Below, piece after piece: positions 23,501 to 62,876 of a DNA stretch of 64,000 bases. The stretch is from a virus. Both the position numbers and the translations under genes were made by a program. The stretch's first letter is position 1. Each line of letters starts with the position of its first letter. The stretch is from the IMG/VR virus record IMGVR_UViG_3300020477_000001, positions 1 through 64,000 of that record; one strand, 5' to 3'. The notes beneath the pieces are model-generated. The model was not told the DNA's origin, searched no databases, and worked only from the letters and a program-made list of their open reading frames with translations.

Positions 23501-25973
23501 TACTTCTAGCTCTGTAGATTCTAGCGTGGTCGGTGGAATTGCTTCTCACATTATGGCTCAAAATGAAGCTGCGGCTAGAGAAGGCAAAGGCAATGAAGCT
23601 ATAACTATGTTACAAGCCTCTGGCGGCTTAGGAAAAGAGAAGCACAGAATAGCTGAATTAGCTGGATCAAGAGAAAGAGCAGTTAAAGAGTCTGGAGAAA
23701 GAGCTAGGCAAAGGGCTGAAGCCGAGTTGGGTGGCGAAGGTGGAATGAAAGATCAATTCGCCAATTTATTAGAAGTAGGAAGATTGTCAACTGGGCTCAG
23801 TGCAGACATAAGAAGTGGTAAAGGTGCGTTTACATTGGCTAGACCAGATTACGACGATAATCAAATGAAGCTTAGTGACCTTAAGAAATGGCTAGAAACA
23901 AATAAAGATATGAGGCCAGAAGATAGAGTTAAGGGAATGAGGCAGATTGATAAAGCTCAAGCGATGGGAATCACAACTCTTGGCGGGTTAAGAGGAAAAG
24001 AGAAGGAACTAGCCCGACAAATAGAATTCAAGAAAACTAAAATCGCAGAAGAAGAACTAGCCAAATCATTATCTGCTGCTGGGATAAACATTGAAGAGTT
24101 TACCAAAAAAATGGGAATAGACCTTGGTCAACTTGCCTTAGACTTAACCAACGACGCAGATATCGGTCAAGGAGCATTAGACAAGCTAGGCGCAGCGGTA
24201 GCTACAGAAGTGACGGCTCAAGAAACTGCCAAGGTAGGCAAAGAAAGAATTGAGCAATTTAAAGAACAATCTGCTGGTGGCAAATTCTCTGTCTTGGATG
24301 ACATGACAAAGAGAATAGAAGAGCTCAGAGGTAAGGAGTCTCTTACTAAAGAAGAAACCGCAGAATTACAAAACCTACAAGCAGGAAAAACAGCAAGACT
24401 TGCTAACATTAGACAAATACAGGGAACTCAAGGTGACGCAGCAGCAGCCGAATATGTAACTCTTCTAGAGCGGCTAGATCAGATGAATCAACGCAAAGCG
24501 GACCTACAATCTCAAGGTATAAGCACTGATAATGTTCAACAAGTTATAGATTCTATAACAACAGGTCTATCTGCTTACGGTTTCGGAAATGAAGCAACGC
24601 AGAAAAAAGACGATCTTGAGAAAATGCAAATAGCCGCAATGACGGCTGGAGGAAAATCTGGCGCTGCCAATACAATAACCCAAAATAACAAAGAACTAAG
24701 TGGCCTCAATGAGGAATTGAGGGACTTAGAGCTATCGGCAGCTAGCGATGATAGTGAAGAGAATTTAGATCGTGTAAAGAAAAGAAGAGATGAGTTAATG
24801 GCTCGAAAGGCTCAAATAGAAGAAGAAAACAAGAGCATTAAAGCCGAAACCTTAGCTGATCCGAAAGTTTATGCCGCCTTCCAAGAAGTAGCCGCAAAAG
24901 ATCAAGGAAGAGCAAGTAGAGACGTAGATGGACTTGATGCTGCTCAAAGAGCTAAGGTGCTATCTGGGTTCCGTGGGCGCACTGATCATGGTGGTAAAGA
25001 CCAGAGCATGTACGGCGAAGAAGACCCAATGGGCGTATTAGGAAAAGAAAAGAGCGTCACCCCTGTATTTGTTGTTAATTGGCCACAGGCAGGAATTGGT
25101 CAAGGCGCAATGGGCGGCGATTTACCGCCTGTTGTTAAAGCATTGCAAGCATCTATGGGCGACCAAGTTGCAAATACCTTCCACAGGCGTGGTCAATCTC
25201 TCGGCGCTTCTGGTGGTGCTTTTGGTTATGGCGGAATAGGTGGAGCAGCAACGAATCAAAGCGCAATTCAGAGATTTGTCACCCGTGGTCAAATGGGGGA
25301 CACGATGTCTTCCGCGATGTCTAACGCTGGTTATCGTCAGTCTATAGCTCAACAAATGGGCGCATTTAGCCCACTTGGAGGAGCCAGAACAGTTGGCGCT
25401 GGTGGGCCGATGACGAGCATAGAAAGTATGCCTCAAGCTGGCGGAAAAGATGTACCTTTGAGGATTGACGGAATCTTTAGTTTAAACGAAAATATATTAA
25501 AATTAAACGAGAGCATAAGAGCGGCATTCTTGGGAGAAACAGCAGGACCGGACGCGAAAACAACCCCAGATGAAGCCGCAGTCGAAGCCGCAGCAGAGAC
25601 GGTTGCAGCAGAAGCAGCAGAAGTAGACACTTCCGGTATAACAGAAAGTATCGAAGCATTGAAAACTGTATTAACTGAATCGAACGAGTCTCTCAGTAGT
25701 GCTTTCACTGAAAATACTGCTCTTCAGTACGAACAGTTTGCAGCGTTTGTAAGTGCTCTAGGTGGTCTAGTTTCTCAGTTGAGCAAGGGAGCTACTCTTG
25801 ACATCAACCACGCAATTACTCATGCTGGTTCTATAGATACCAATGTGATTGGTGGAGCTCAGTTCGATGCTTTGCAGGATGGATTGGGGCAAGTAGCTGG
25901 CGAAGTGGGGGTTAATCTAAACCCGACAAATGGAGGCCCAACGCCTCCTGCTGGGGGCACTCAACCAGCTTAA
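11595..25973 (+). CDS. Giant tape-measure protein, 4792 aa
   Basis: This protein sets tail length and is threaded through the tube. Residues about 85-330 match the conserved phage tape-measure core (VEKKLADINVLFGAS, FDEVAVAATELARQGLSAEETL, SVSLDQLIAIVTAAQQ-type helices, GGAVIGNSFKTIFTRI). Residues about 555-2155 contain nine G-[FYHL]-[VI]-P-N-F motifs spaced by inserts of 70-420 residues. Residues about 2160 to the end are mainly Ala/Gln/Glu-rich helices and coiled coils, with a Pro/Lys-rich low-complexity linker near 3690-3800. Hydrophobic helical segments occur near residues 434-456, 1110-1160, 2735-2775 and 3855-3880. At the usual 0.15 nm per residue the full chain would span about 700 nm, an upper bound if inserts fold. 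The length exceeds most known tape measures. Confidence 0.93.
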   Translation: MARDIVLSIDGDTRPLVRRLNKDISRASRSASFEMNDKNFSQPLGRITGQLGEFDRALDASNARVLAFAASAGVLLVVQKGFQAVFSSMVNVEKKLADINVLFGASEKSLAKFGNSLFGVASETAQGFDEVAVAATELARQGLSAEETLKRTRDALILVRLTGMDAAEAVQAVTAALNSFSRAAIDSTEYVSKLAAVDAAFAVGSDDLAAAVSRVGSSAQEAGVSLDQLIAIVTAAQQITARGGAVIGNSFKTIFTRIQRPRVLKQLEELGIRTQDLGGKIRPALTILKELAQTYDLLAQSQQAQIAELIGGVFQVNVLKASLRDLGKEFSLYNNALNISNNATDEAIRRNEELNKTVSASLNQVVQNFTKFGAQAGKAILGPLTKNVSTGINAVIGEFSLDRAEKNIEDDSRSLGNKIVSGIFKGVGKFLGTGGIIIGIKILFNTFREFTRYAIDGVKKLGAIGGQTRDQIELQGQVTRELEKQPELLRQLVNGEIDAKEAADKLYSSLKQNTQELKIQKDLVESFAYAMSAKGVRIAPTTAGATTIDPASVANVGFVPNFTSTKDSIAAAVELSSASYANSSTKAIKTNIDGIGSVMTNSKEKIVKHPSFKQPFVNPPITSPEGRAHKRRSIDKTGVDPYKHAFGGFIPNFALDPEKIVGKLDKKSGKRGKTLRDQVASVKRDAGQYLDAKQKMDLFYEKKETTGFKSLNDAAGALGVGDRFFETSKYGRYRLAALVDKFGGGDVNNLPQVIRNHADDLKNIKAKDQEAQSSGKEFEQRLASKLNYELVANEPIDFGKGIGNPNGIRSTIGMEDTYAYADAIDSRRGHEEGLYLDKVLRWQRQQEGTPVNATSILGNFLKGEQLHKFGNLSPVEVIGVNSEAENVGGRYGVENEREFFPWIDSTSRSKGASQETREEFKKANEGGVPLLESVREAATEGQIRSPRISWSYDRDNVSTKALGMSGGHIPNFEAIAAAQPLPSVPIESNPNWIKLKEKIDDGIAKYGFGDMRANLIEDSRVSIDGINSFLNNGTLAPTKEDSQKKMQDASYKGLYNFVNSDVPSQKRIDSLIKDARENKETVDRRLLDISTEDVNKETFFETLKTLAGSLMMTYGLPVLIAKAAKTYPAAAVALAAAKTPVGIATGVLSGVGLASLAFWKEGKAKNEAVELSNGLEGSLGGIEDYNTEHNNLRKEAIVKASLVSKPTELHRGTLYSYGDVSSRLSENTKAWPEGVSIGEQDGFPIWSAANTMFYKGKDNTVRHETLDNLGGSSKDSEENLAGWPRLNINEINKAAGLAKMRGITAAKNSFFADHKRENINKINGPADSAYVKGFIDNIKGIRNEINKRLEDNLDVNSWTRPDHIVSSKGYIPNFETLDERGLPPLPTNKEMEVARSLKKAFKNKQIVKHPTIGPRGKHYVAMGLGSRAPRYGGGVDNRTIPYTIISASAETAEETGYLSADYNKGGGFLTPFFDGIMNYNNRNIDQSVTRGSGLARFSMLQKFAREKGASIDSESIVTNPNLLKNVEYKHKYGTRDELINPDDKYASLREEKEELSEKIRELRGQYLKNRDGDEELNEPSGIGYASLPDNNPFRGLERDFPASQPSEKQKKLLKQIQKLEGSRSEIKDEKRQRIAELIEENFKNTQADKRSAWAKLIEIIPQLKYRMGKAGGEGVITQGEFYSSLPKNETLPSILDPYEFKSLNDLRNFVYNIVQKHGASEFNKHIVGLVDDNNDGKFDAGTIPPNLAALGKSLGVSELKTIPIENLPAGYFGGKPHQDDSNVPFNSKGFVPNFVKFNPSNPPALRKPAIALKLKNKEIHYDPDSLMHYQAAENLNILPEEILEHGFINKGKYESSFFSDFEKIADRQKAGIGEFADASEALGIPRGEPLPRGGIVTADQMRAPAIDRSSLPRGHAPMRGPSRPMRYGGFVPNFLKIPKATSEKGGGSLHVMLAEMLQSNAGKVVEAVSKTPKLFNKFKNSIKLREFGEQDTYGGITASEGLVPNFLNIPKPTSEKGGGKLVDMILDTPELLMKFKDFVRNNMRETLEAFDKWTDTPSELAQKYIDGNLYRGYIPNFSSALGDAINREKSAGISSSSIRVDSDPSLKTKQNPMGLGVYNTKQETSLKQGIKFSKQAGIDPKTKGAFRGHIPNFAADRAPAGGLEFQGKEYKGGQFMPEGSVDTALLTSINNALKGTLDKAKEMTSSMSQAVSGIEGLQKASSQMADSMSEAVSGIESLHQTSTQMADSMGDAVAHLDDLGNGIMGLQNIQSQQLTAAQEGLKQAKNQSINQYVTAVKTSEIAASMQAQADLAQQQEDERQRGLQLEKDRNKRIAANVKDAGTTALNILSTGFEGAAPAGAPEIGIKKLGEDSDVKTSLGDRLKTDLGAFKIEEKHDVDQSAAAQEAYDRLSAAVRAASQAAEQETKKIEGLVPKDLQGKFQEFGSLTDDAQKAIAASANNMTVAEFENETEDEQQKLKDALAASVNHVNKFNANQETYNDAISDAEKQLKAANLTKVDRVEIDPAKLAQKQEAGTISVDELKDAQAAVSRQLRQMDSDIADYRRTLDEGTTFTPEGDKLQSQAAMDAEAKIKELNDSREELADKLKQISKTTSEATLKDLEASSAQVKEALDKLGKNASSMDFTDLIQRETKDKNRERAIAGKGKGIGTENVSLGGIFGALGKKFTQQADASDDVQQKMFFMSSAISTVSGMFDSFGEEGAALNKGISGMTDGVNTATGIISTLPGPWGKAVGIVAGVGVALNGVAKAISSNKLDVAGLKKKADQAGEKFTELSNNITAYASAFSELQSAAADMNTPADQIIRLNKKLEDLIASVPPKFAADLAAITDPADLQAKVAEIIAGEQKKTKSIEFAASSAERMDANAGISNLYGFASPVAQFDGKEGAVNLERAAGDLSQLIDFEKLQNGLGKASTAMEKDATERLLSANSASEMANAMKQGFGATEELANSIRQMNQGDLQILRKRLVDMANAARRAREAMEKVAAERAKVSTDLEIPKLQLAIQAATINVEQEEQMLGTAGGGIEGFKDPQSLNAAFDSFTAALGQLTAQTTSPGAQGAATGQGRAVLGLVEGLRDIAGIIPTVDDSGQMTSEFKDFRDTVAAGIEESIREQTKAQLKQAQAQMAVATDSDDIRQLESVIGLLQNRLSDADFISQAAMKQADEAIGTVGVEVKTIQIPAEGSTRIGETIGTTMEGFGVTGAKADQTLIDANDEIAYQLQRMQKREAELEKKKKAGTLTDDEKQEQADLATAIKSLTDIGTVTKDTTAGQLQSLQVVDAATGEIGDLFKGDRMQVGGDLTPAQKALMRKQDELRIATDKLAEATRDAAAKVKEEQEKEVAREGGRNLLQGMTQTQQFVTGAGTDSLFGGAETQAELDQGGFVARAIQEQAGNLGILNWTEMGGLTKADRGEAASEFIMGEREVGDTGVKSMEGLVEAMRVVSQKAEESAGRELGVGDLQSLAFGNLDFEGDLTQEGVRDAMMEALKTEMNIKDEQAAELLDHIFKVFKNDKNGANTNQLLKSILASTNKDEFQKMDKMAEKAVQPGSIYTNDQKGREELQKLREMMAKNFGQSQEDVEKAKATVEKERQENAVKIPFTNMALPNISDLSAGNMAAGAVTATGAGIAGYKGTKFVAQAGKDALGAGRQAAMRGMGSEKVWFGDERGQKRGTFREEYKKRREARKKKPAADAPDPKATDTPEPKSTKPKAGADKIDDLRGKGPRPTPSTTGTAAIDDATRTATTTAETPKSKPKIERRLAGSKPAPTTAPKKPAIRINRPFIEGYGGQQIDPVTKKPNVAGAVDDVAEAGTKAATKTTTATKGVAKGTEAAAKSASKLTTALKVAGKAAVVVDAALVGWDAYKVTEALATGNFDEYAQAYEDANKNAGILTRSLNGMSSPITAVATDIKIVSDTFSAYSDAAQLAADANKKMGEQIGKSSENIMNFGKQALNVTSSSVDSSVVGGIASHIMAQNEAAAREGKGNEAITMLQASGGLGKEKHRIAELAGSRERAVKESGERARQRAEAELGGEGGMKDQFANLLEVGRLSTGLSADIRSGKGAFTLARPDYDDNQMKLSDLKKWLETNKDMRPEDRVKGMRQIDKAQAMGITTLGGLRGKEKELARQIEFKKTKIAEEELAKSLSAAGINIEEFTKKMGIDLGQLALDLTNDADIGQGALDKLGAAVATEVTAQETAKVGKERIEQFKEQSAGGKFSVLDDMTKRIEELRGKESLTKEETAELQNLQAGKTARLANIRQIQGTQGDAAAAEYVTLLERLDQMNQRKADLQSQGISTDNVQQVIDSITTGLSAYGFGNEATQKKDDLEKMQIAAMTAGGKSGAANTITQNNKELSGLNEELRDLELSAASDDSEENLDRVKKRRDELMARKAQIEEENKSIKAETLADPKVYAAFQEVAAKDQGRASRDVDGLDAAQRAKVLSGFRGRTDHGGKDQSMYGEEDPMGVLGKEKSVTPVFVVNWPQAGIGQGAMGGDLPPVVKALQASMGDQVANTFHRRGQSLGASGGAFGYGGIGGAATNQSAIQRFVTRGQMGDTMSSAMSNAGYRQSIAQQMGAFSPLGGARTVGAGGPMTSIESMPQAGGKDVPLRIDGIFSLNENILKLNESIRAAFLGETAGPDAKTTPDEAAVEAAAETVAAEAAEVDTSGITESIEALKTVLTESNESLSSAFTENTALQYEQFAAFVSALGGLVSQLSKGATLDINHAITHAGSIDTNVIGGAQFDALQDGLGQVAGEVGVNLNPTNGGPTPPAGGTQPA
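13260..18055 (+). repeat. Nine G-[FYHL]-[VI]-P-N-F motifs inside the tape measure
   Basis: Copies lie near bases 13263, 13534, 14491, 15698, 16958, 17378, 17594, 17807 and 18034, that is residues near 557, 647, 966, 1368, 1788, 1928, 2000, 2071 and 2147. Each is preceded by Gly and followed by a polar or hydrophobic residue. Spacing is irregular. Two neighbouring copies (1928 and 2000) also share a longer duplicated tail, PNFL-[KN]-IPK-[AP]-TSEKGGG. Confidence 0.85.
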
Positions 25974-50262: not shown

Positions 50263-50667
50263 CTACTTATCTTCTTTCACGATGTACACCTTCTGTCCAT
50301 CGATAAAGACATCCCTTGCATAATGCACGGGTTCCTTTGTTTTAACGTCTACAAAGGATTCATACTTATAAGGATTATAAGTTACCTGTCTAAGCGTCTT
50401 AGGCTTCCTAGCTTTACGCTCCTCTAAAGATTTAACCTTACCTAGATCGTGAACATAACCGCGCACGGTTGCGTGGACGTTCTTCCGTCTGGTTTCTAAA
50501 ACTCTCTGCCTTCCCGCTTCGCTAACATTAAAGTCTATGCGTCCATAATGGCCCTTCTTACCAACTATCCTTATGGCGTGGGTATGCTTTACAACAAGGC
50601 CCGTTTTGCGATCTCTCACGCTCAAGCACTTCTTATGTAAGTTGTAATATACCTCTACCGATTTCAT
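50263..50667 (-). CDS. Small basic conserved-type protein, 134 aa
   Basis: A 134-residue Lys/Arg-rich protein, mixed alpha/beta (VEVYYNLHKKCLSVRDRKTGLVV, RRKNVHATVRGYVHDLG). Its net positive charge suggests nucleic-acid contact. It is the last gene of the minus-strand operon and overlaps the upstream gene as ATGA. I recognise it only as the kind of hypothetical protein common in phages. Confidence 0.5.
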   Translation of the reverse strand: MKSVEVYYNLHKKCLSVRDRKTGLVVKHTHAIRIVGKKGHYGRIDFNVSEAGRQRVLETRRKNVHATVRGYVHDLGKVKSLEERKARKPKTLRQVTYNPYKYESFVDVKTKEPVHYARDVFIDGQKVYIVKEDK

Positions 50668-51392
50668 TTTTTGTTTTTAATTCTTTGGATTAGCGTGAAG
50701 GTTAAGTCTTTTGGTATGTCTTCAACTGAAGTGTAACCTTCAGCTTTTTCGTGCCCTTCTTTTAATAGAACCTTCTGGACTGCTTCGAACGAAACATTCT
50801 TTTCTTTCATTACGCTCTTGAGTAGCGTAGATGGAGCGATTGTCTCCATTGGCGAGCTCTCAGTGCTTTGGTTGTTTGTCACATCTAGGTTGCCTAGTTC
50901 CTCTTGCCCAACAATGTTGATTTTTAAAAAGTTACGAACGCAACGAACGAAAGCTCTGTTTTCTGCGATAGGCCCAAGGAAGAACCGAGCAAAGCTTTGC
51001 GTGTTGTGTGGCGACGCGTCACCAATCGCTGAAAATGTCACCTCTTTACCCTCTGTCTCATAGTTTGGTGTCCAAGTGATGCTGCAAGTAGCGACCACAT
51101 ACTCTGGGCTTGGAGATGTAACGTCATATTTAACTGATGTGTAGCCTCTGATTTGCGCTAGCTCTTTAATACCCCCAAGTAAAATAATCAACTGGTGATC
51201 TTCTAATTTGGAAACATCAGTCTCTTGCGTCTTCTGTCTATTGGGTACGAGAAACTCTTCCTTTACCATTTTGCGCCAATCAACAAACCCATCATCAGTG
51301 AAAACATAATCTACTTTGGGCTGAGTAATCAGTCCATGATCGTCTCTTTCGATGGATTTGACTTTTTTAGCTGCTTGTTTTCTCGCTGGCAT
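50664..51392 (-). CDS. Putative Rad52-like ssDNA annealing protein
   Basis: A 242-residue protein. After a basic N-terminus, residues about 65-175 alternate strands and helices: LIILLGGIKELAQIRGYTSV, YVVATCSITWTPN, FSAIGDAS and PIAENRAFVRCVRNFLKI. The last element, an Ala-Glu-x-Arg-Ala helix followed by a conserved Glu-Glu-Leu, resembles Rad52/Sak-type annealing proteins (AETRAxxRA). The C-terminal 70 residues look like a small helical domain (LLKSVMKEKNVSFEAVQKVLLKEG). It lies in a replication operon, where a recombination function is expected. The start fits a promoter whose -10 ends 7 bases upstream. The family call is tentative. Confidence 0.4.
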   Translation of the reverse strand: MPARKQAAKKVKSIERDDHGLITQPKVDYVFTDDGFVDWRKMVKEEFLVPNRQKTQETDVSKLEDHQLIILLGGIKELAQIRGYTSVKYDVTSPSPEYVVATCSITWTPNYETEGKEVTFSAIGDASPHNTQSFARFFLGPIAENRAFVRCVRNFLKINIVGQEELGNLDVTNNQSTESSPMETIAPSTLLKSVMKEKNVSFEAVQKVLLKEGHEKAEGYTSVEDIPKDLTFTLIQRIKNKK

Positions 51393-52650: not shown

Positions 52651-54551
52651 TTTATGTCGAAGGCAATTTTGTCTCTTCCGTTTCTTGAGAAATTTGAAAT
52701 CTTTTGAGTGTTTACATGGGGTAAAAATACTATATCGAAGAATCCTTTGTGTTCTCCTCTGCCTTCAAGTAGGAGTACGTCTTCCATTTGTGGGGAGTAG
52801 GGTATTGTCCTGTGTACGTTCTCGTTTCCTTTGAGGATATGAGCGTGCTTCATATTTGTTGCTACGTATAGGTTGTGTTCTGGGTATGTATTTTTAATTG
52901 ATTTAAAAAGTCCAGTAGAAAGATACAAGTCTCTTTCTGTTTCTGGGATTACGTATAAGATTCTGTTTTCCCTTCCTTCGTCATCGAGTAATTCTTCTAG
53001 GTCTTTTTTGTTTTTCTCTGAATTTTCTTTTCTCGCTACGTTCCTAAAGTATTCTTCGATACTTTGCTTGCTAGCGCCTTTTTTGATTTCTTGCATCCAG
53101 TAAAGGTAACCTTCGTCTTCTTGATTTACGTCTCGATTGAGTATCTCTTTGTATAGGGACTTTATCCATTCTCCGTTATCTGAGATTTCCGGTATTTCTG
53201 CGTCTGGGTTTTTGGCTTTTTCTTCTAGCTTAAAATTAAAATCAGAAAATGGAGCCTTATCTATAAACTCTTCTATAATTTTACCTACAGATTTGGGTGA
53301 AAAGTTTTTAAGTGTCCAGTCTCTCGCCTTCTTACCCATGTCGGCTCTAGCTTTAGGTTTAATGGATATTACTTTTCGGAGTTGCTTGGCAATTGAGTTG
53401 GGGTTTGTTGAGGCTTTTTTGAATTCTGTGCCGTGTTCTCTGTACTCAAACCACTCAAGGGGTAATGAGTTGGCTTCCGGTTTACACATCTCCTCTCCAC
53501 AACTATAATTAGTTACAAGGGTGATAAGTTCTGTAAGCTTTGCTTCTTGTATTGGTATTTCTTGACCACCAGAAGTAAAGGGGTGGCAATATACGTCCAT
53601 CAAGTTATACACTTGGTTTAATTGGCGTTCGCCAATGCCGTGACCTACGCTTGTTGTTACTATTGATTTAGGGTCTCCACAAGCTCTGCATGGTCCCTCC
53701 TCTCCCTTGTAGTCTTGGACCGTAAAGCTGCCACAAGACTTGCATAGGTACGTAGTTAGGATGTCTTGAGGCTCAATTCCGTATTCTTTGGATAGCTTTG
53801 GTATTGACCACCCTTCGGTGAAGGAAGTATGTAGTAACAGCTTGGCAGGTACTTGGGGATTTTTATTTTTAAAAATTTTAAAACCTTCAAGTAGATTAGG
53901 TACTGACTTTCTGAGTTGATTCCTAAACACAAAGCCAATAATAAAGTCATTGGGGTTGATGCCAAAGGAGTGTCTTAGGTGCAGTCTTTCGTTTTCGTCG
54001 AGCTTAAAGAAGTATTCATCATCAACTGCGCCATGAACGGTTTTAGCGTTGCTGTAGCCCATTTTATTGAGTTCTTTAGTGGCGAAATCGCTCCAAATCC
54101 AATAGTTGTCTACTTTTTCAGCAGCTTGAACCGCTGTCGGCAGTATAGGTAGCGAATCCAAGGTAGTCCAAATTGCAGATGTAATTTTGTTAAACCACTT
54201 TTTATTTATTGCAAAATCTACTCCCCAAATATCTTGAACCGCTATATAAACGTCTGGCTTTTCCTGTTCTATGATTTTATCTATAGAGTGAGCGCCATAT
54301 GACGCTGACCTTGCTAAATGGGGGTCTCTTTGGATATGTTCTAACTCAGAAGGATTGTTTGGAAGCGTACCTATGCTTTTCCAAGGGGTTCTCTGAAGGT
54401 CTTCTACGCCGTCTACCATTCCGCAGCAAAAGTGAGTTATCTCGTATTTGCCAGTTTTGTATAAATAAGTCAAAAGGGCTCTGGCATTTCTGCCAAAGCC
54501 TGTCTTTGCCAGAGCAAAATCGCTCTGAAAGAGAAGTTTCTTTTTTTTCAT
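52638..54551 (-). CDS. Glycosyltransferase: GT4 domain, zinc ribbon, DUF4214-like segment, start of GT9 domain
   Basis: The start is taken at ATG 54551, overlapping the upstream stop as TAATG; GTG 54557 is an alternative. Residues about 1-430 form a GT-B GT4 enzyme: KKKLLFQSDFALAKTGFGRNAR loop, and SGGQEIPIQEAKLTE with an E-x7-E-like donor site near 330-350. A CKSCG...CRACG zinc ribbon (residues about 270-291) is inserted in it. Residues about 461-510 (EILNRDVNQEDEGYLYWMQEI) match DUF4214. Residues about 530-637 (RILYVIPETERDLYLSTGLF, YVATNMKHAHIL) match the start of a GT9 domain that appears to continue in the downstream gene. A glycan-building enzyme; acceptor unknown. Confidence 0.65.
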   Translation of the reverse strand: MKKKKLLFQSDFALAKTGFGRNARALLTYLYKTGKYEITHFCCGMVDGVEDLQRTPWKSIGTLPNNPSELEHIQRDPHLARSASYGAHSIDKIIEQEKPDVYIAVQDIWGVDFAINKKWFNKITSAIWTTLDSLPILPTAVQAAEKVDNYWIWSDFATKELNKMGYSNAKTVHGAVDDEYFFKLDENERLHLRHSFGINPNDFIIGFVFRNQLRKSVPNLLEGFKIFKNKNPQVPAKLLLHTSFTEGWSIPKLSKEYGIEPQDILTTYLCKSCGSFTVQDYKGEEGPCRACGDPKSIVTTSVGHGIGERQLNQVYNLMDVYCHPFTSGGQEIPIQEAKLTELITLVTNYSCGEEMCKPEANSLPLEWFEYREHGTEFKKASTNPNSIAKQLRKVISIKPKARADMGKKARDWTLKNFSPKSVGKIIEEFIDKAPFSDFNFKLEEKAKNPDAEIPEISDNGEWIKSLYKEILNRDVNQEDEGYLYWMQEIKKGASKQSIEEYFRNVARKENSEKNKKDLEELLDDEGRENRILYVIPETERDLYLSTGLFKSIKNTYPEHNLYVATNMKHAHILKGNENVHRTIPYSPQMEDVLLLEGRGEHKGFFDIVFLPHVNTQKISNFSRNGRDKIAFDIKCTT

Positions 54552-55132
54552 TACCACTCTAAGTCTTCGTCATCGTCTGGAACGGTTACTTTTTGCGGTT
54601 CATTGTTGGTTTCTTTTTTGAACTGCTTGTTTTGTGGCTTATAGTCCATCTCCTTGAAGTCAAAAGTTTTTCTAAGAGATTCTTGTAGGTAAAGTTCTAG
54701 GAGTTTCGACTCTGACCAGTCAAGCCCAATGACTACTGTATTTTTATTAGTTGAATCATCCTTGGGTTGCCAAGTGATTCTGTAGGAAAAACCAAGTTGG
54801 TCTCCTACTTTAACCCACTCGTCGCCTTCTTTTCTCTTTTTCCAGTAGCCCTCGAAGCTGATTTGGACAACCTGCTTAGATGATTGATGGTACGCTGAGA
54901 AAGAACTGTTTCTCTGAATGGCGTTAATGATCCCTGCCGCCTCATTGGCGGAAAATTTCACCATGACCTTGCCGTTGGGGTTATCTTTATTCTGTGAGAA
55001 CGAGCCTTTTTTTGCTTTATCGTCCCAAGAGTGCTGTTTGATTTGGGACGACATAATAGACCCCTTGGCGTCTACCCAAAAAGAGCAAGCGGAGCCTTTG
55101 CTGCTTGGATTTGGCTTATAGAATTGTAACAT
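54551..55132 (-). CDS. Putative ssDNA-binding protein with acidic C-terminal tip
   Basis: A 193-residue protein in a replication operon, just downstream of the polymerase gene. The body is mixed beta/alpha with aromatic and basic strands (CSFWVDAKGSIMSSQIKQHSW, VMVKFSANEAAGIINAIQRN, VVQISFEGYWKKRK, VVIGLDWSESKLLELYL). After a polar linker it ends DDDEDLEW, an acidic tail with an aromatic end like that of phage and bacterial SSBs. It resembles Whirly/PC4-like binders in layout, but the fold is not certain. It has its own TTGAC promoter and no Shine-Dalgarno. Confidence 0.5.
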   Translation of the reverse strand: MLQFYKPNPSSKGSACSFWVDAKGSIMSSQIKQHSWDDKAKKGSFSQNKDNPNGKVMVKFSANEAAGIINAIQRNSSFSAYHQSSKQVVQISFEGYWKKRKEGDEWVKVGDQLGFSYRITWQPKDDSTNKNTVVIGLDWSESKLLELYLQESLRKTFDFKEMDYKPQNKQFKKETNNEPQKVTVPDDDEDLEW

Positions 55133-55138
55133 GGTTAG

Positions 55139-55167
55139 AGATTAGGTTGTTTTTTAATTTTAGTCAA
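55139..55167 (-). promoter_or_regulatory. TTGAC-family promoter, nearly leaderless
   Basis: Minus strand: TTGACT, 17 bases, TAATCT, ending 7 bases before ATG 55132. It shares TTGACTAAA, the TTAAAAAA block and TCTAACCATG with the promoter before 51392. No ribosome site lies between. Confidence 0.6.
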
Positions 55168-57775
55168 GATTTTTTTTGTCATTTTTAAGTTCACTGAGCT
55201 TGGTGTAAACCTTGTTATCTTGTACGGAGATTAAGTCGGCAAAAACTACATCATCTTTAGTGATTCCTTTTACTATAACTATCTCTCCTTCCTTGGGGTG
55301 TCCTCCGTTGAGTTCTTTGCTTTGGTCCATTTTATCGTTGAAAATCATTACTTTGATAGCATTAGTTTCGTCTGAGATCATGGTTCTGTAGTACCTGCTC
55401 TTCTTCGCACTCCTAGAAACTCCAGTGTAAGGTTTTTCGGCTACTCTGCCGATGAAGCATACTCTCTGATTTTCGGGTAGCTCTACCACAGTTGATAGCG
55501 GCGTTAGTCTGAGACTACCGTTGACGTATTGGTCTCGTTTTTGGGAAAATATGTCTATTAGTCTGGTGTTGTATGTATAGCCAAGTAGGTTGTTTTCATA
55601 GAACCAATTAGCAAAGGATTCTGATTTTTTATTTTTTAAATAAATTTGTTTATATCCTTCGCACTTTTTCTGTATAGTGTTTACTCTTGATTCCTTGATG
55701 AAATTTTTACCTTTTTCATCAACTTCTTGAGAGAGGTGCTTAACGATGGCTACTAGGTCATAGTCGAATTTTTCTCCTATAGGTAGGCAGAGGCGTTTTT
55801 CTCTAGGCGTTAATATACTCCAGAGTTGGGCTTCGTAAACTACTTTTGTCCTTGATTGTGAAAAACCTTCTAGCACTCCCGCTTGTATTAGTGGGCAGAT
55901 TATACTTAAACCAAGGCCAGCTTCTTCTGCTGCTTCAAGAATTTCTAGTTTGTTTGAGTATTCGCTTTTAAAATTATTTAATTTTTCAATGGATTTATCT
56001 GAGATACCTTTAATTGAGAGCAGCCCGAATCTGATATCCTTGCCTTGAATTGAGAAATCCATCTCGGATTTGATCATGTGTGGGGGTAGTAGCTTAACCC
56101 CAAAGTGGTGTAGCTCTTTTTGGATTTTTGAGATTTCTGATATCGGGTCTGGCTCGTGCCTAGTCATTTGAAGCAAGCTCAATGCGAACTCTTTTGGGTA
56201 TTTGTATTTCAAGTAGACAGTTGCCGCTGCAAGGGCAGCGTATGCAATGGAGTGAGATTTATTGAAGGAGTAGTTTGCTGAGTCCTCAAGAACCTTCCAT
56301 AGCACATCGCCAATTTCTGGGTCTAGCTTATTACTTTTGATTTTTTCGGATATTTTCTTTTTCCAAGTTTTAACTTCGGATACTTTCTTTTTACCGACGA
56401 TTCGCCTCAATATCTCGGCTTCATCAAGTGTAAAGCCGATCTTATGCGCCATTTTCATCATCTGCTCTTGGTATAGGCATACGCCACCAGTAGAAGATAA
56501 GATGTCGTCGAAGAATGGGTGGACGCTTTGCGAGTCTCCTGTTTCAGCGTATTTAGCATATTGATCAACGTAAGATAGTGCACCGGGTCTTGCTAGCGCG
56601 AGAACTGCGCTGAGTTCATCTAGGTTTTTCGGCTTCACCTTTCTGCAAACCTTAAAGTTCGTATCTGCCTCAATTTGAAACAGTCCGTGTGGCTGTTTTA
56701 GGTCTTGTAGTTGCTGGTAAATAAAGTCATCATTGAAGTCAATGTCATCAACTGTTATACCTATGGTTTTGCAAGCTCTATCAACCACAGAAACGCTCCT
56801 CAGCCCCAATATGTCAAGTTTTACACTTAGGTCTGAAACCCAGTTCATATCGTAAGAGCTAACCGTACTTTCTTTGTCTGAGGCCAACTCAGTTGGGCAC
56901 GACTTATTCATCAAGTCGTATGATATCGATACTGCTGATGGGTGTACGCCTTTGTTTTTAACTAGGTTTCTTAATTTTAAGGCTACATTAAATGAGGTTT
57001 TGTTTTCGTCGCACCACTCTTTAAATTCTTCTGATTCGTCGTAACTTTCTTGGAGGTCTTTCACTGAGCCGAAGACTTTTGGAATCATTGCAGAGACATT
57101 ATTCATCTCGTTTTCCTTTTTGCCTCCTACAATTTTTCCGCATTCTTTGATCAGCAGTTTAGTGGTGAGGGTGTTTAGGGTGAGGATTTTACTGGTTCTG
57201 CCTTTAAACTTATCTTCAAGATACTGAAGTACTTTTTGTCGATTATAGTAGCAGATATCTAGGTCCACGTCGCACATTAAGGAACCGTCAAGATATGTGA
57301 TTCCCTTGATTTCTTTTTTCTTTGCTCTGATTTTAGATACAAATCTCTCGAAGTATAGTTCATGTTTTACTGAATCAATTTTTGTAACACCTATCAAGAA
57401 CAGTACGATGCTGCCAGCCGCAGAGCCGCGCCCTAGCCCAGTGGGAATGTCGTTTTTCTTGCAGTAATTAATTACGTCCCATACCAATAGTATATAATCG
57501 GTAAAACCCAATTCTTCTAAAGTTTCTAATTCATATTTTATTCTATCTACATACTTTTGGTATTCTTCGCTGCCTTTTTTAAGCTTTAGTTTTTTAAAAC
57601 CATCCAGACACAGTGCTCTTAAGAAATCAAAGTTGCTAATGTCTTCGCTGACTTTGATTTTATGTTTTTCGGTTTTTTCTATAGTGAACCTTGGTAGCCT
57701 TACTCCGTGTAAGCCCAAGTCGTAGTTTCCGAAAGATGAGCAAAATTGCTCTGCTGTTAGATTTGTACTTGCCAT
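55160..57775 (-). CDS. C-family DNA polymerase (DnaE-type) core without PHP domain
   Basis: An 871-residue Pol III alpha core that would carry out template-directed DNA synthesis. Visible elements: palm glycine loop PTGLGRGSAAGS (residues 111-122), catalytic D171 and D173 in CDVDLDIC, GVHPSAVSIS, the third catalytic Asp in KLDILGLRSV, HGLFQIEAD, ALARPGAL, YQEQMMKMAHKIGF, LRRIVGKKK, the fingers SFNKSHSIAYAAL, a helix-hairpin-helix near RFGLLSIKGIS, and a C-terminal OB domain. The usual N-terminal PHP domain is absent and appears as the separate gene at 58796-59554. The tau-binding C-terminus is also missing. It overlaps the exonuclease gene by 19 bases. Confidence 0.93.
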   Translation of the reverse strand: MASTNLTAEQFCSSFGNYDLGLHGVRLPRFTIEKTEKHKIKVSEDISNFDFLRALCLDGFKKLKLKKGSEEYQKYVDRIKYELETLEELGFTDYILLVWDVINYCKKNDIPTGLGRGSAAGSIVLFLIGVTKIDSVKHELYFERFVSKIRAKKKEIKGITYLDGSLMCDVDLDICYYNRQKVLQYLEDKFKGRTSKILTLNTLTTKLLIKECGKIVGGKKENEMNNVSAMIPKVFGSVKDLQESYDESEEFKEWCDENKTSFNVALKLRNLVKNKGVHPSAVSISYDLMNKSCPTELASDKESTVSSYDMNWVSDLSVKLDILGLRSVSVVDRACKTIGITVDDIDFNDDFIYQQLQDLKQPHGLFQIEADTNFKVCRKVKPKNLDELSAVLALARPGALSYVDQYAKYAETGDSQSVHPFFDDILSSTGGVCLYQEQMMKMAHKIGFTLDEAEILRRIVGKKKVSEVKTWKKKISEKIKSNKLDPEIGDVLWKVLEDSANYSFNKSHSIAYAALAAATVYLKYKYPKEFALSLLQMTRHEPDPISEISKIQKELHHFGVKLLPPHMIKSEMDFSIQGKDIRFGLLSIKGISDKSIEKLNNFKSEYSNKLEILEAAEEAGLGLSIICPLIQAGVLEGFSQSRTKVVYEAQLWSILTPREKRLCLPIGEKFDYDLVAIVKHLSQEVDEKGKNFIKESRVNTIQKKCEGYKQIYLKNKKSESFANWFYENNLLGYTYNTRLIDIFSQKRDQYVNGSLRLTPLSTVVELPENQRVCFIGRVAEKPYTGVSRSAKKSRYYRTMISDETNAIKVMIFNDKMDQSKELNGGHPKEGEIVIVKGITKDDVVFADLISVQDNKVYTKLSELKNDKKNLD

Positions 57776-58395
57776 TTCAATTTATTCCAAACTTTTAGAT
57801 TGAGTTTAAGGTCAACGATAGCATTATGTAGGTTATCGTAATCGTGATCTATGTTGAATTCCTTACCTAACCAAGTGAGGTTGCTTTTAATTTTCTTAAA
57901 TCTAGTGTGATAGATTTTATATTGGTAAGCGGTGAAATCCATTTCTCCGTCGTAAGGCACTTCGCCTTTGATACCTCTGGCTATACAGTTCGTGTCTATC
58001 ATTTTGGAGACAAGGTGCTTATAGTCCTTGCCCATGTATTTGTAAAAGTCTCTAATTAGGTAAAGGTCAAACCCAAGAATGTTGTGACCAACTACGTAGT
58101 CTGCGTTATCTAGCCAATCCATGACCGTGGGTAAAATGCCTTCTGGAGCAACGCCTTTTTTTTCCATGTCTTTTGGGTTGTACTTAGTAATTCTTGCTGC
58201 ATCTTCGCTGATTTCTAGATCAGTTTCCCATTTAACATAAAAATCTTTTTCATCTACAGATTTGTCTCCTTTAACCTTGAGCATCGAAATCTGCCAAGGC
58301 AGATTGTGACACGAGTGTAGGCAAAGATTAAATGTTTCGCAGTCAATGAAGACTAGCTCTTTGCTCTTGTTAAATCTTAGCAGGTGTTCGTCCAT
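57757..58395 (-). CDS. DEDDh 3'-5' exonuclease (DnaQ-like)
   Basis: A 212-residue proofreading-type exonuclease. Exo I: VFIDCETFNL with D18 and E20. Exo II: VVGHNILGFDLYLI with D110. Exo III: LHNAIVDLKLN with H190 and D195, so it is of the DEDDh class. It lies directly upstream of the polymerase core and overlaps it by 19 bases, which suggests stoichiometric production and proofreading for that polymerase. It starts within TAATG shared with the cupin stop. Confidence 0.88.
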   Translation of the reverse strand: MDEHLLRFNKSKELVFIDCETFNLCLHSCHNLPWQISMLKVKGDKSVDEKDFYVKWETDLEISEDAARITKYNPKDMEKKGVAPEGILPTVMDWLDNADYVVGHNILGFDLYLIRDFYKYMGKDYKHLVSKMIDTNCIARGIKGEVPYDGEMDFTAYQYKIYHTRFKKIKSNLTWLGKEFNIDHDYDNLHNAIVDLKLNLKVWNKLKWQVQI

Positions 58396-58799
58396 TATCT
58401 TTTAATTCGGTGACTGTCGCTATCCTTGTGGTGTGTGCTTATTTCTATAAACTCTACATCTCCATCGTAGGCTATTAATTGATGAGGTAAGCCTCTGGGT
58501 ATCTCTAGCGTTTCGCCTTCATAAATTATTCTTTTTACTTCTGTTCCTTCCATCGTGTCAATAGTATTTACCTGTAGCGAGCCTTTGGTTATGTAAAACG
58601 TTTCATGCTTCTCCATGTGGAAGTGCATCGATGAATTGTAGCCTTGATTAATTTGGAGTATCTTGCCGCAGTAATTTTCTTCTGGATTGTTCGCCATCCA
58701 GATTTCTCTACCCCAGTCCTTCTCTACAACTTTAGGTTGTCCGACTTTCCTTTCTTTCTGTTGCCCTTCTCTCCAGATTTCACCGCCAGTCTTTTTCAT
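58395..58799 (-). CDS. Cupin, mannose-6-phosphate isomerase type II-like
   Basis: A 134-residue single cupin. KDWGREIWMANN followed by YCGKILQINQG and SSMHFHMEKHETFYITKGSL gives the metal site H59, H61 and E66, with H106 in PRGLPHQL. This layout is typical of the C-terminal cupin of type II phosphomannose isomerases and related sugar isomerases. Alone it may isomerise or bind a sugar. It sits between the PHP gene and the exonuclease gene, so it may serve the glycosyltransferases encoded downstream. Start and stop both overlap neighbours. Confidence 0.75.
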   Translation of the reverse strand: MKKTGGEIWREGQQKERKVGQPKVVEKDWGREIWMANNPEENYCGKILQINQGYNSSMHFHMEKHETFYITKGSLQVNTIDTMEGTEVKRIIYEGETLEIPRGLPHQLIAYDGDVEFIEISTHHKDSDSHRIKR

Positions 58800-59554
58800 T
58801 GATTTTCCTTCCAGCTTTCGAAAGAGAACTCGTCGCTACACATATGTTCTATTTCTGGTTTATCTAGTGTGCTTCTGTTGTTGATGCATCTAAATGTTAG
58901 GTAAGCCTTGAAATCTTCTCTGTTTTTGTAAAAAATGCTTTTAGATTTCATGACCTCGTTCGAGTTTTTCTCCGCGTATTCTAGAACTCTGTTTTTGAGC
59001 ATATCGTCAAAAGGTAGCCCGTTTGACTCAACCATTAACACTGGCTTGGTGAAGTCGAATTCTGGAACGCATGTAGAACATGCTAGCAAGTTTTTGTATA
59101 TGAAGGAATCATAAAATGGTATACAAAGCGATAAATCTTTGTCGTCCCATACTTCTGCGATGCTTTTATAGTCTGTTCTTGGTGTATAGTAGAATCCTTC
59201 GAGCGAGGCTTTTGTGCTTAACTTGATAAGCTTTGCGTATCCTTTTTTATTTTTAACAAAAATAATTGCTTTGTGGGTTTTTTGTAATTGAGATTCATTT
59301 TTTTCAGAAAGGTCTGAGCAGACTGACATCCTTAAGCCAAAGGCTAATTTAATTTTGGCCTCCTTACAGTTTCTGTATGCTTGTAGGTAGCCAGTCATCG
59401 CGTCATCTACGAGCGGTAAGGTCTTAATATCATTGTCGTGGCATATGTCTATAATAGAGTCTGGCCCATCCTTTACTGATGAACCTTGGGCTTCTAAGGT
59501 TAGAATGCTTCTTCCTAGCGAATAATGGGATTTAAATATGGGTAGGGCTCTCAT
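58796..59554 (-). CDS. Stand-alone PHP-domain protein, N-terminal part of a split DnaE
   Basis: A 252-residue protein that follows the order of the N-terminal PHP domain of Pol III alpha: FKSHYSLGRS (canonical HxHxxYS), LPLVDDAMTGYLQAY (canonical ALTDHGNMxG), KLAFGLRMSV (canonical PIxGxE), NKKGYAKLIKLSTKAS, and at the end KAYLTFRCINNRSTLD with DEFSFES, the segment that joins PHP to palm in intact DnaE. Metal-binding His and Glu positions are changed, so it is probably structural rather than catalytic. With the 871-residue core the sum (1123) is close to an intact DnaE (about 1160). Confidence 0.75.
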   Translation of the reverse strand: MRALPIFKSHYSLGRSILTLEAQGSSVKDGPDSIIDICHDNDIKTLPLVDDAMTGYLQAYRNCKEAKIKLAFGLRMSVCSDLSEKNESQLQKTHKAIIFVKNKKGYAKLIKLSTKASLEGFYYTPRTDYKSIAEVWDDKDLSLCIPFYDSFIYKNLLACSTCVPEFDFTKPVLMVESNGLPFDDMLKNRVLEYAEKNSNEVMKSKSIFYKNREDFKAYLTFRCINNRSTLDKPEIEHMCSDEFSFESWKENQ

Positions 59555-59555
59555 T

Positions 59556-60491
59556 TTATCCTTGATAGTGCGCTGGACAGCCGTTGTATTTCATTTTAAC
59601 CATTTTGGTTTTAGCAGTCATTGACTCTATAAGCTCCTCTTTCTCAAAAGCGGTTTTAACTATGTCTCCTTTTTCGTTTTTGATTGCGTAGTATTCAAGT
59701 GGGTCTAAGTAAGGGCATCTCCATGTTTTACCAGCTTTGCAAAGCCATTGGGTCTTGGGGTTACCTGCCGCAAATTTTGATGTAGCCTTTTCTTCGGTAA
59801 AGTTATTAATTTGCTCGTATACAAAGGCCATGTAGTGTTTGAAGCCTTCCAATTGGTCTTGGGATGCTTCTACTTGTTGTACGGGCTGCTTAGGGAATCT
59901 TAGGAATTGGAACTCAGCTATGACGTTTTCAATGTCGGGCCAAATTTCTTTCGCAGCAATCGTGTATGCCATTGCTTGAAAGTTCGCTGTTAGCTCTTCT
60001 CCTCTGAATTTATATTTACTTGATTTATAATCTACAATTTTAACTAAGTTTTTGTTTTTATATACCGCAGACTTATCGATAAACCCTCTGCATTTGTATT
60101 TTGGGTCTTTGCTTTCGATAAGGAACTCTCTTTCAGCTTCTAGGTCTTCGCTGCCGTTCATCCAAAAGTCTGTATTGAGCCCGACTACGATCATGTCATT
60201 GCATAGGTCATAGTTTTCTTCATTCAACCTTCCAGCCTTTTTAAGGTGTTTAATTACTAGTCTTTTAACTGAAGGAACTCCGTCTAAGCCTTTGTCGATA
60301 AGTAGCTTTAAGTGTTTATCTCTTTGCTTTCCTAGAATTAGCTCGAAGACGAGGTGGCAGATTGTTCCACGCATTGCGCCATCGTTTTGCTTCTGAGGCA
60401 GCATTAGGTGGTAATTGCACCAGTAGCGCCAAGTGCAGTCTTCCAGAGTCTTCATTCTGGACGGAGAAAGTATTCTTTCTTTTTTACTCAT
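59556..60491 (-). CDS. PD-(D/E)XK nuclease, RecB/Cas4-like
   Basis: A 311-residue nuclease of the RecB/PD-(D/E)XK superfamily. Motifs: CRGFIDKS with D139, KIVDYKSSK with D154 and K156, and NFQAMAYTIA (Q172, Y176). Cysteines C19 and C25 near the N-terminus and C251, C259 and C305 near the C-terminus are placed like the Fe-S cluster ligands of AddB and Cas4-type enzymes. It could process DNA ends in replication or recombination. It overlaps the primase gene by 8 bases. Confidence 0.85.
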   Translation of the reverse strand: MSKKERILSPSRMKTLEDCTWRYWCNYHLMLPQKQNDGAMRGTICHLVFELILGKQRDKHLKLLIDKGLDGVPSVKRLVIKHLKKAGRLNEENYDLCNDMIVVGLNTDFWMNGSEDLEAEREFLIESKDPKYKCRGFIDKSAVYKNKNLVKIVDYKSSKYKFRGEELTANFQAMAYTIAAKEIWPDIENVIAEFQFLRFPKQPVQQVEASQDQLEGFKHYMAFVYEQINNFTEEKATSKFAAGNPKTQWLCKAGKTWRCPYLDPLEYYAIKNEKGDIVKTAFEKEELIESMTAKTKMVKMKYNGCPAHYQG

Positions 60492-61401
60492 ACCAAGTTT
60501 TTATCTCTTTCTTTGTCATTTCTCCAAAATCGCACTTGGAGGGAAGTTTAATGTTTATTTGGTTTGGGTCAAAGAACTTTTTTAACTTCTTTTCAGCCTT
60601 TTCTGCCGCTAAGTTTCCTGCATTATTATTCTTCGAATCATCGTTAAAGGATACGTATATTTTGTCTGGGTCAGCTTTAATTATTGAATTAAGAACTTCA
60701 GTGCTGACATCCAAACCGAACGTAACTATCGAGTTTTTGATTCCGCAATCCCACAAAGCTAGCATGTCACCGATGCTTTCTACTAGGATTACTTCTTTTT
60801 TTTGTCTGATAATTTTAAAATTATTTTTCAATGGGTACTTCCAGCTAGCTTTACCACCGTAGTGTTTCCATTTGGGGCGTTTGTCGCTTCCTTCGGTTAG
60901 GTCTCTCCCTGCAAGACCGACAAGTTCGCTGTTGTAATTAAAAATTGGGAATACATATCTCTTCGCCATGATTCCAGCCTCAACTACTCCGCCCTTAAAT
61001 TCTTCAAGGGTTTCTTGCGACACGCCTCTATCGATCCAATATTTGTGGTCTGGAATAATTTTTAATAAATATTCTTCTTTTAAAACCTTCGGGGTTTTTT
61101 CAGTTTTGTTGTTTTGGATTCTGCTTTTCTCGTTGAGGGTTCTTTCTGTGATTTGCACTTTCCCGCCGAGCCATTGCTTGGCTTCCTCCGTAGATTTCAG
61201 ATTTAGAGACAGTTTAACTAACTCTTGGAAGGAGCCACTAATGTTGGCGCTGAAGTCGATAAAGTAGCCGTTATTTTTTCTTACGCTAAGGACCGTATTA
61301 CTGGATGAATCTCTATAAATAGGCTTCATCCTTAACTCTTTGCCATTGTCGGTTATATTCGAATAACCAATTTCTAATAGTATGTCTTTAATCTCCTGCA
61401 T
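60484..61401 (-). CDS. DnaG-type primase, TOPRIM domain
   Basis: A 305-residue primase that would make RNA primers. Residues about 1-65 have the DnaG zinc-domain layout (KPIYRDSSSNTVLSV, NGYFIDFSANISGSFQELVKL) but without its cysteines, so the zinc is gone. TOPRIM: EVILVESIGDMLAL (E208) and SFNDDSKNNNAG (N-D-D in place of the usual D-x-D; similar N-D-D forms occur in phage primases). It is about half the length of host DnaG and lacks a helicase-binding domain of usual size. The start overlaps the helicase stop. Confidence 0.82.
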   Translation of the reverse strand: MQEIKDILLEIGYSNITDNGKELRMKPIYRDSSSNTVLSVRKNNGYFIDFSANISGSFQELVKLSLNLKSTEEAKQWLGGKVQITERTLNEKSRIQNNKTEKTPKVLKEEYLLKIIPDHKYWIDRGVSQETLEEFKGGVVEAGIMAKRYVFPIFNYNSELVGLAGRDLTEGSDKRPKWKHYGGKASWKYPLKNNFKIIRQKKEVILVESIGDMLALWDCGIKNSIVTFGLDVSTEVLNSIIKADPDKIYVSFNDDSKNNNAGNLAAEKAEKKLKKFFDPNQINIKLPSKCDFGEMTKKEIKTWYE

Positions 61402-62876
61402 TAGAATAATTCGCCGTCATTTGAGCTTTGGTCTTCTGCCGCAAAGTTTTCGTTTTCTGTGTTTACTATATCCCTAAGACTTCCTCTTTCTTCGATATCG
61501 AAATTTTCTACTTGGAAGTTCAAGAAGTTGTTCATGAACCTTTCTGATCCGTCTTGTAGCGTCCTTCTAATTATGTCGTGATGCCCAGCGGCGTCTTTAC
61601 CTTGGAAGCGGGTTTTAAGGGGTATGAGTTTATGGGTTCCAAACCTGTCGCCGTCTTCGGCCATTTCTTCTAGGCTTTTGCGCCTAAAAATTGCCACGAA
61701 GCTGGCAAACCATTGTAGTCTGTCTGAAAGAGAAATTGCTGACGAGTCATCTACTAGGGCTCCTTGAGACCCTCTTTCGCCGCTTCGGTTCATCTGCATG
61801 GCGGTAATTATCGGGGCGTTAATTTCTTCTGACAGTTTTTTTAGTTTGTCAATTTTATCACCAATAGCTTGATGCTCGGCCCAGTTAGCTGCAACTCTTT
61901 CGCCTGTAAGTTTCACGTAATCATACGCCAAGATACATCTATTGCCTCTGCCGACTTTAGAGAAGTACCAGCGTCTTACCATCGAGCAAATTTGATCTAT
62001 GTTTTTATTCCCCACAAAGAAGTGGTCGCATTTCATATTTTTAATTTGCTTAATTTTTGACCTAAAAGCCTTAACGTAGTCCTCTCTTTTTCTCCAGTTG
62101 CCAGTTTCAAGGAACCACATAGGTATTCCCGTTAGCGATGACGCAACCCTAAACTGGATGTCAACCGTGCTCATTTCTGTGTCAAGAATTAAGGCTGGTA
62201 CATTATTTATCGCCGCCGACTTGATGAGCATGTTACTTATGAATGTAGTTTTGCCTTGCGCTGGCCTAGAAACAATTGCGTAAATATTGCCTTCTCTGAG
62301 ACCGCCATACATTCTGTTGAATTCTGCGTATGGCGTTTGAAGCCCACTTTCACTTTCTGGTGTGTTTCCCCTTTCTTCTATTAGCTCTTCTACGTTTTCG
62401 AAAAGATTTACTGGTTCATCTTCTATCTCATATTCTTGCATTTTGTCTCCATAGATTTTATCGCAACTTGAAATTATGTCTGACAGGGATTCTGTTCCGC
62501 ATCCTTTTGAGTAGTCTTGAATTTTTTTACCTACGCCATAAATCTCTCTTCGAATTCTGAGTTTTAGTAATTCTTTCGTTGACTCTAGCGTTGCTTCCTC
62601 TGTTATTTGAGTAAACGATATATTGTCTATGTACCTGTAAATATCTATTTCTTCATTGAACGAAATTCCTAAGTTCTTAATTTTCTCTGATAAAATTACT
62701 TTATCTAGATTCCCGCCATTGTTTAGTATGTTCGAAATAACTGAGAAGATTGTCGAGTGTACCTCATTTACGAAGTCTTTCTCGGTAATAAACCTCTGTA
62801 CCTCTGGGAATAGATTTGAGTATTTTAATAACCCACCTAATACGTGCTTTTCTACTTTTAACGAATATATTTCCAT
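61401..62876 (-). CDS. DnaB-type replicative helicase
   Basis: A 491-residue hexameric helicase. Residues about 1-140 form the helical N-terminal domain (EKHVLGGLLKYS). The RecA-like ATPase begins at about 185: Walker A VSRPAQGKTTF (202-212), LILDTEMS (Walker A-prime acidic residue), Walker B CILAYDYVKL near 314-323, and ITAMQMNRSGERG (motif H3 with the Q and R residues). A polar C-terminus ends DGELF. It lies upstream of and overlaps the primase gene, as expected for a coupled primosome. A TTGAC-type promoter with an inverted repeat precedes it. Confidence 0.92.
   Translation of the reverse strand: MEIYSLKVEKHVLGGLLKYSNLFPEVQRFITEKDFVNEVHSTIFSVISNILNNGGNLDKVILSEKIKNLGISFNEEIDIYRYIDNISFTQITEEATLESTKELLKLRIRREIYGVGKKIQDYSKGCGTESLSDIISSCDKIYGDKMQEYEIEDEPVNLFENVEELIEERGNTPESESGLQTPYAEFNRMYGGLREGNIYAIVSRPAQGKTTFISNMLIKSAAINNVPALILDTEMSTVDIQFRVASSLTGIPMWFLETGNWRKREDYVKAFRSKIKQIKNMKCDHFFVGNKNIDQICSMVRRWYFSKVGRGNRCILAYDYVKLTGERVAANWAEHQAIGDKIDKLKKLSEEINAPIITAMQMNRSGERGSQGALVDDSSAISLSDRLQWFASFVAIFRRKSLEEMAEDGDRFGTHKLIPLKTRFQGKDAAGHHDIIRRTLQDGSERFMNNFLNFQVENFDIEERGSLRDIVNTENENFAAEDQSSNDGELF

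Follow-up and report, generated by a model that had tools for sequence, protein, structure and literature searches.

Bacterial polymerases of the C family have been reported invariably to keep a PHP domain (PMC3666897). The stability and activity of E. coli PolIII depend on its degenerate PHP domain as a structural element, and there is a correlation between lost PHP metals and the presence of an epsilon homologue (PMC3666897); E. coli epsilon holds the PHP domain by a long C-terminal tail (PMC3919608). Group 2.2 jumbo phages, like the virus described below, encode the PolIII-alpha catalytic unit as two proteins, which are thought to reassemble; in those phages a minimal core is divided into an NTP-binding and a template-binding half, other PolIII domains are lacking, and a family B polymerase is encoded as well (PMC7824862). 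The paper on cluster EF goes no further than noting two genes with a relationship to PolIII-alpha (PMC7302621).

Organization of the viral replication locus

The window analyzed here (64,000 nucleotides) comprises bases 1-64000 of a 158,301-base IMG/VR virus record (G000). A replication gene run on its minus strand encodes, in order, a DnaB-like replicative helicase (61401..62876), a Toprim DnaG-like primase (60484..61401), a PD-(D/E)XK nuclease of the RecB/Cas4-like type that is a constant upstream neighbor (59556..60491), a 252-aa stand-alone PHP domain of PolIII-alpha whose metal site is lost (58796..59554), a 134-aa cupin-fold protein (58395..58799), a 212-aa DnaQ-like 3'-5' exonuclease of the DEDDh type matching RNase_T (57757..58395), an 871-aa PolIII-alpha core without PHP that consists of linker, palm, thumb, fingers, HhH, and OB (55160..57775), and a 193-aa protein with the acidic tail DDDEDLEW (54551..55132). 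The gene for the last of these follows the core in most loci and gave no Pfam match over the cut-off; its product is a possible candidate for an ssDNA-binding protein. These ORFs bear out the original prediction that PHP and core occupy separate genes of 252 and 871 aa with a cupin and an exonuclease gene between them.

No family B polymerase (PolB) and no beta clamp gene were found in the 158-kb genome. The window also holds several giant plus-strand ORFs, one of them of 4792 aa (11595-25973), and a 242-aa protein (50664-51392) that had no Pfam or PHROG match and resembles Rad52/ERF-type annealing proteins by eye only. Elsewhere in the record lie genes for a virus-encoded GTPase of the Tubulin/FtsZ family (G000 149983-151146, L093:10484-11647; Pfam Tubulin, E 1.7e-14) and for a protein of the Histone-deacetylase family (G000 114509-115390, L091:13010-13891; Pfam E 7.9e-32).

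Domain content and active sites of the separate chains

The PHP protein covers positions 23-245 of TIGR00594 (NCBIfam search, E 9e-19), also matches Pfam PHP, and aligns with E. coli DnaE residues ~1-250, ending near residue 250. Its AlphaFold model (pLDDT 84) matched 20 PDB structures by fold at E<=0.001, all of them PolIII-alpha or PolC, with free phosphoesterases appearing later and at weaker E values; the predicted fold is that of a PolIII-alpha PHP domain and not that of a generic phosphoesterase. When the nine PHP metal ligands were scored against the motif HHDHEHCDH (HHDHEH[C/H]DH; definition from PMC12926913), the window protein retained none of the nine and all 47 aligned members of the clade had lost the motif, so that the loss suspected originally from a single protein holds for the group. 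The old metal positions now carry near-invariant replacements (K, R, K, F, S, and Y/F), and no alternative metal motif was recognized in the alignment. Judged by these residues, the PHP protein is catalytically inactive as a nuclease. All nine residues are kept in the reference phage enzymes of Daubenski, BpsS-36, AR1086-1, MT835501, and L078, and not all are kept in PB1 and L079. The dN/dS of the PHP gene (0.02-0.07) is within the range of the core and exonuclease, and the PHP protein is under strong purifying selection. Three loci (L062, L040, and L069) carry a longer PHP ORF of 439-471 aa with a C-terminal extension of ~190 aa that was not assigned to a family, and in L100 a 164-aa ORF resembling this extension directly follows the PHP gene.

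The core covers positions 280-1048 of PRK05673 (NCBIfam), matches Pfam DNA_pol3_alpha, finger, and HHH_6, and aligns with E. coli DnaE from residue ~258 on. In E. coli DnaE, the counterpart of its N-terminus, EQFCSSFGNYDLGLHGVRLPRFT, lies just past the end of the PHP protein, and therefore no sizeable segment has been lost between the two; the alignment places the break within the PHP-palm linker. The complementary DnaE matches of the two proteins likewise agree with the predicted cut at the PHP-palm boundary. The expectation that the summed length would be near that of an intact DnaE held numerically (1123 aa), but the agreement is partly coincidence, as the C-terminal domain is missing and an insert in the palm region of the core adds length. 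The PRK05673 match stops at 1048 of 1146 positions, and the DnaE C-terminal (tau-binding) domain is absent from the core. Alignment with E. coli and Taq DnaE showed that the three catalytic Asp residues of the palm are kept (MCDVDLD and KLDILGL). Fingers and HhH follow the palm (Pfam DNA_pol3_finger, 109 bits; HHH_6, 44 bits), with a fold match in support, and the C-terminal OB domain, which scored below the Pfam cut-off (15.6 bits), aligns with the OB of DnaE and matches OB-fold proteins in the model. The PDB fold matches of the core model (pLDDT 84) are DnaE structures. A loose beta-clamp-binding pattern occurs in a few cores only and at scattered sites, with no conserved motif recognized in the core.

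A split intein joining PHP to core was considered and rejected, as the sequences read showed no intein-like ends, either on the PHP protein or where the core begins. Separately, the core is split again inside the fingers motif (FNK/SHS) in three loci, L059:9941-12997 (contig shared with L005), L114:3717-6698, and L173:11605-14589. This second split looks, from its sequence, like a split intein: the N-part begins CLSEDTIVK..., the C-part ends NFYAEGIVTSN/S, and Pfam Intein_splicing matched the L059 N-part at E 5.5e-7, which is below the Pfam cut-off.

The catalytic residues of the exonuclease (D18, E20, D110, H190, and D195) were invariant in 15 sequences, and its best PDB sequence match was the PolC-type exonuclease 2p1j. 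The protein ends ~17 residues past the last catalytic Asp and is without the long C-terminal tail of E. coli epsilon; therefore its docking must differ from that in E. coli. Its gene lies between PHP and core in 109 of 109 loci. The cupin gene was found there in 16 of the 109, and a part for the cupin in polymerase function was rejected on this count; it is a swappable insert, an optional cargo.

Distribution and origin of the separate genes

An IMG/VR search with the core yielded 75 loci, and more than 560 IMG/VR stretches held a related PHP, of which the best 80 were read; those loci that hold both PHP and core, 109 in number and non-identical, form the set referred to throughout. The two genes were separate and on the same strand in every one of the 109 loci and fused in none, at distances from 583 to 3626 nt (median 1273). 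The genes between them vary and include the cupin as well as glycosyltransferase-like and sulfotransferase-like ORFs (the latter two read by eye); L040 has long opposite-strand ORFs between PHP and core (by eye). Loci with a single half were cut by a contig end except for L100 and L030. The L100 locus holds only one half, with the core lying farther off on the same contig at a distance of ~9.6 kb and two long opposite-strand ORFs between, and L030 is a 54-kb contig without a PHP match that starts ~4 kb before the core.

G000 contains exactly one PHP match and one PolIII-alpha match, and the same holds for each of ten related viral contigs (91-178 kb). No fused copy of PHP and core was present in the 158-kb record or in these ten contigs, and thus the PHP-containing polymerase elsewhere that the original prediction had named as contrary evidence did not appear there. 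Among the loci read, an ORF holding both PHP and core occurred only in the distant outgroup L079. The split is old and stable, and a large lineage of uncultured viruses carries it as a fixed trait. Assignment of a host from contigs placed in MAGs was abandoned, as the MAGs were inconsistent (Woesebacteria, Halobacteriovorax, Flavobacteriaceae, Verrucomicrobiales, and Lokiarchaeota); these contigs with conflicting hosts are probably mis-binned viral contigs. Two contigs in a Lokiarchaeota MAG (L182 and L186) showed a PolIII-alpha split differently, with PHP (active-looking motif) and palm together in 625 aa, followed by a DEDD-type exonuclease ORF (229 aa, by eye) and then the fingers part.

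In maximum-likelihood trees, with no PolC included, the split cores grouped as a single clade with a long stem (SH-aLRT 99-100). The enzyme of phage Grayson grouped with that of Daubenski, and Karate grouped with PB1 and L079 (SH-aLRT 99), although Karate is a long branch whose position is less sure. Because each groups with fused relatives, the PHP/core splits of Grayson and Karate look like events independent of the one in this clade.

Interpretation and comparison with known replicases

We favor, at a probability of roughly 0.77, the explanation that the locus encodes a DnaE-type PolIII-alpha replicase in two chains, in which the dead PHP docks on the core in trans and a separate exonuclease proofreads. 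The observed halves are complementary, with intact polymerase and exonuclease sites and a dead PHP site; they co-occur constantly, are under purifying selection, and have no fused copy. The core, with its palm, thumb, fingers, HhH, and OB, would make DNA. The PHP chain, its own nuclease site lost, would most likely dock in trans at the place it takes on the core in fused DnaE and serve as a structural and positioning subunit (a scaffold), and the separate DEDDh exonuclease would supply proofreading, probably from a site on or near the PHP subunit. We infer physical assembly in trans because the genes are separate and up to ~9.6 kb apart, and with it a stabilizing role of PHP and the docking of the exonuclease. 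The pairing of a dead PHP with an intact DEDDh exonuclease follows the pattern reported in PMC3666897. Outside this clade, the combination of a dead PHP and a neighboring exonuclease rests on the annotation of PB1, in which gp58 adjoins the polymerase with a degenerate PHP, because the profile of the viral exonuclease detected nothing similar in the neighborhood of the reference phage polymerases. Processivity is left without an account in the two-chain reading, since no conserved clamp motif was recognized in the core and no beta clamp was found in the genome.

It is possible, though we consider it unlikely, that the PHP protein left the polymerase for another job, as a regulator or a DNA or protein adaptor, and that the core works without any PHP. 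The near-invariant residues replacing the metal site could form a new binding surface, and the extension of ~190 aa that is sometimes present (L040, L062, and L069) would suit such a role; however, the protein has kept the whole length and fold of the DnaE PHP domain, its nearest folds are all PolIII-alpha, it always occurs alongside the core and the exonuclease among the replication genes, and bacterial C-family polymerases were reported never to be without the domain (PMC3666897). Strong purifying selection and invariant residues in the old cavity could also point to non-classical catalysis by PHP, not that of a tri-metal nuclease, such as pyrophosphate or nucleotide hydrolysis. With none of nine metal ligands in the window protein, no alternative metal motif recognized, and an intact DEDDh exonuclease encoded next door, such an activity seems very improbable.

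There is scant reason to suppose that the genes descend from a dismantled PolC-type enzyme, in which an exonuclease is inserted in PHP and the palm follows: the PHP-exonuclease-core gene order mirrors the order of PolC domains and the exonuclease profile best matches the PolC exonuclease 2p1j, but the PHP protein and the core both fit models of DnaE much more closely than those of PolC and, in line with DnaE, the OB-like domain sits at the C-terminus. Two nearby fragments of one known gene look like the product of an assembly error, a frameshift, or gene decay as well, yet the halves recur, parted by other genes, in 109 loci that are not identical, the arrangement extends to several hundred IMG/VR stretches, and PHP and core are both under strong purifying selection; conservation in the 109 loci together with dN/dS refutes an artefact or decaying gene, to which we give practically no weight.

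Beyond the two-chain replicase itself, we lean toward describing the enzyme as a three-chain C-family replicase (core, dead PHP, and DEDDh exonuclease) with PHP as an obligate trans-acting adaptor; in that case the core would be the first replicative PolIII-alpha chain that is naturally free of PHP and has an inactive PHP as its partner. In such a natural two-chain enzyme the dead PHP domain can be added, omitted, or swapped, which would give a direct measure of stability, speed, fidelity, and exonuclease docking.

The bacterial DnaE1 PolIII-alpha with epsilon (E. coli; PDB 5fku, 2hnh, and 4gx9) shares with the viral enzyme its domains and their order, a degenerate PHP metal site, and a separate DEDDh exonuclease for proofreading, whereas here PHP is a separate polypeptide, the tau-binding C-terminal domain is absent, no conserved clamp motif was recognized, and the exonuclease is without the long epsilon tail. 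In contrast to the group 2.2 jumbo phages, PHP alone is cut off here and the core is left whole, with no PolB found. Bacillus phage KLEB27-3 (OM634661) likewise has dnaE in two ORFs, split by an HNH gene, but there a homing-type endonuclease gene interrupts the polymerase core itself, and a PHP-sized N-terminal region is still on part 1. Nearer in design are Rhodococcus phage Grayson gp102/gp103 (Weaselvirus, MH153812), with PHP (303 aa) and core (942 aa) in separate genes also cut in the PHP-palm linker, and Microbacterium phage Karate gp55/gp56 (Krampusvirus, cluster EF), with separate genes for PHP (345 aa) and core (767 aa). Unlike the genes of this clade, those of Grayson overlap by 8 nt with nothing between them, keep all nine PHP metal residues, and group with a fused Streptomyces phage enzyme, while those of Karate are adjacent, have an active PHP motif, and group with PB1-like phages. 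Breaks at this one domain joint have thus arisen in phage PolIII-alpha at least three times, apparently independently. Grayson and Karate show that a PHP/core split is not wholly without precedent; what is new here is that the separated PHP is inactive and is parted from the core by intervening genes.
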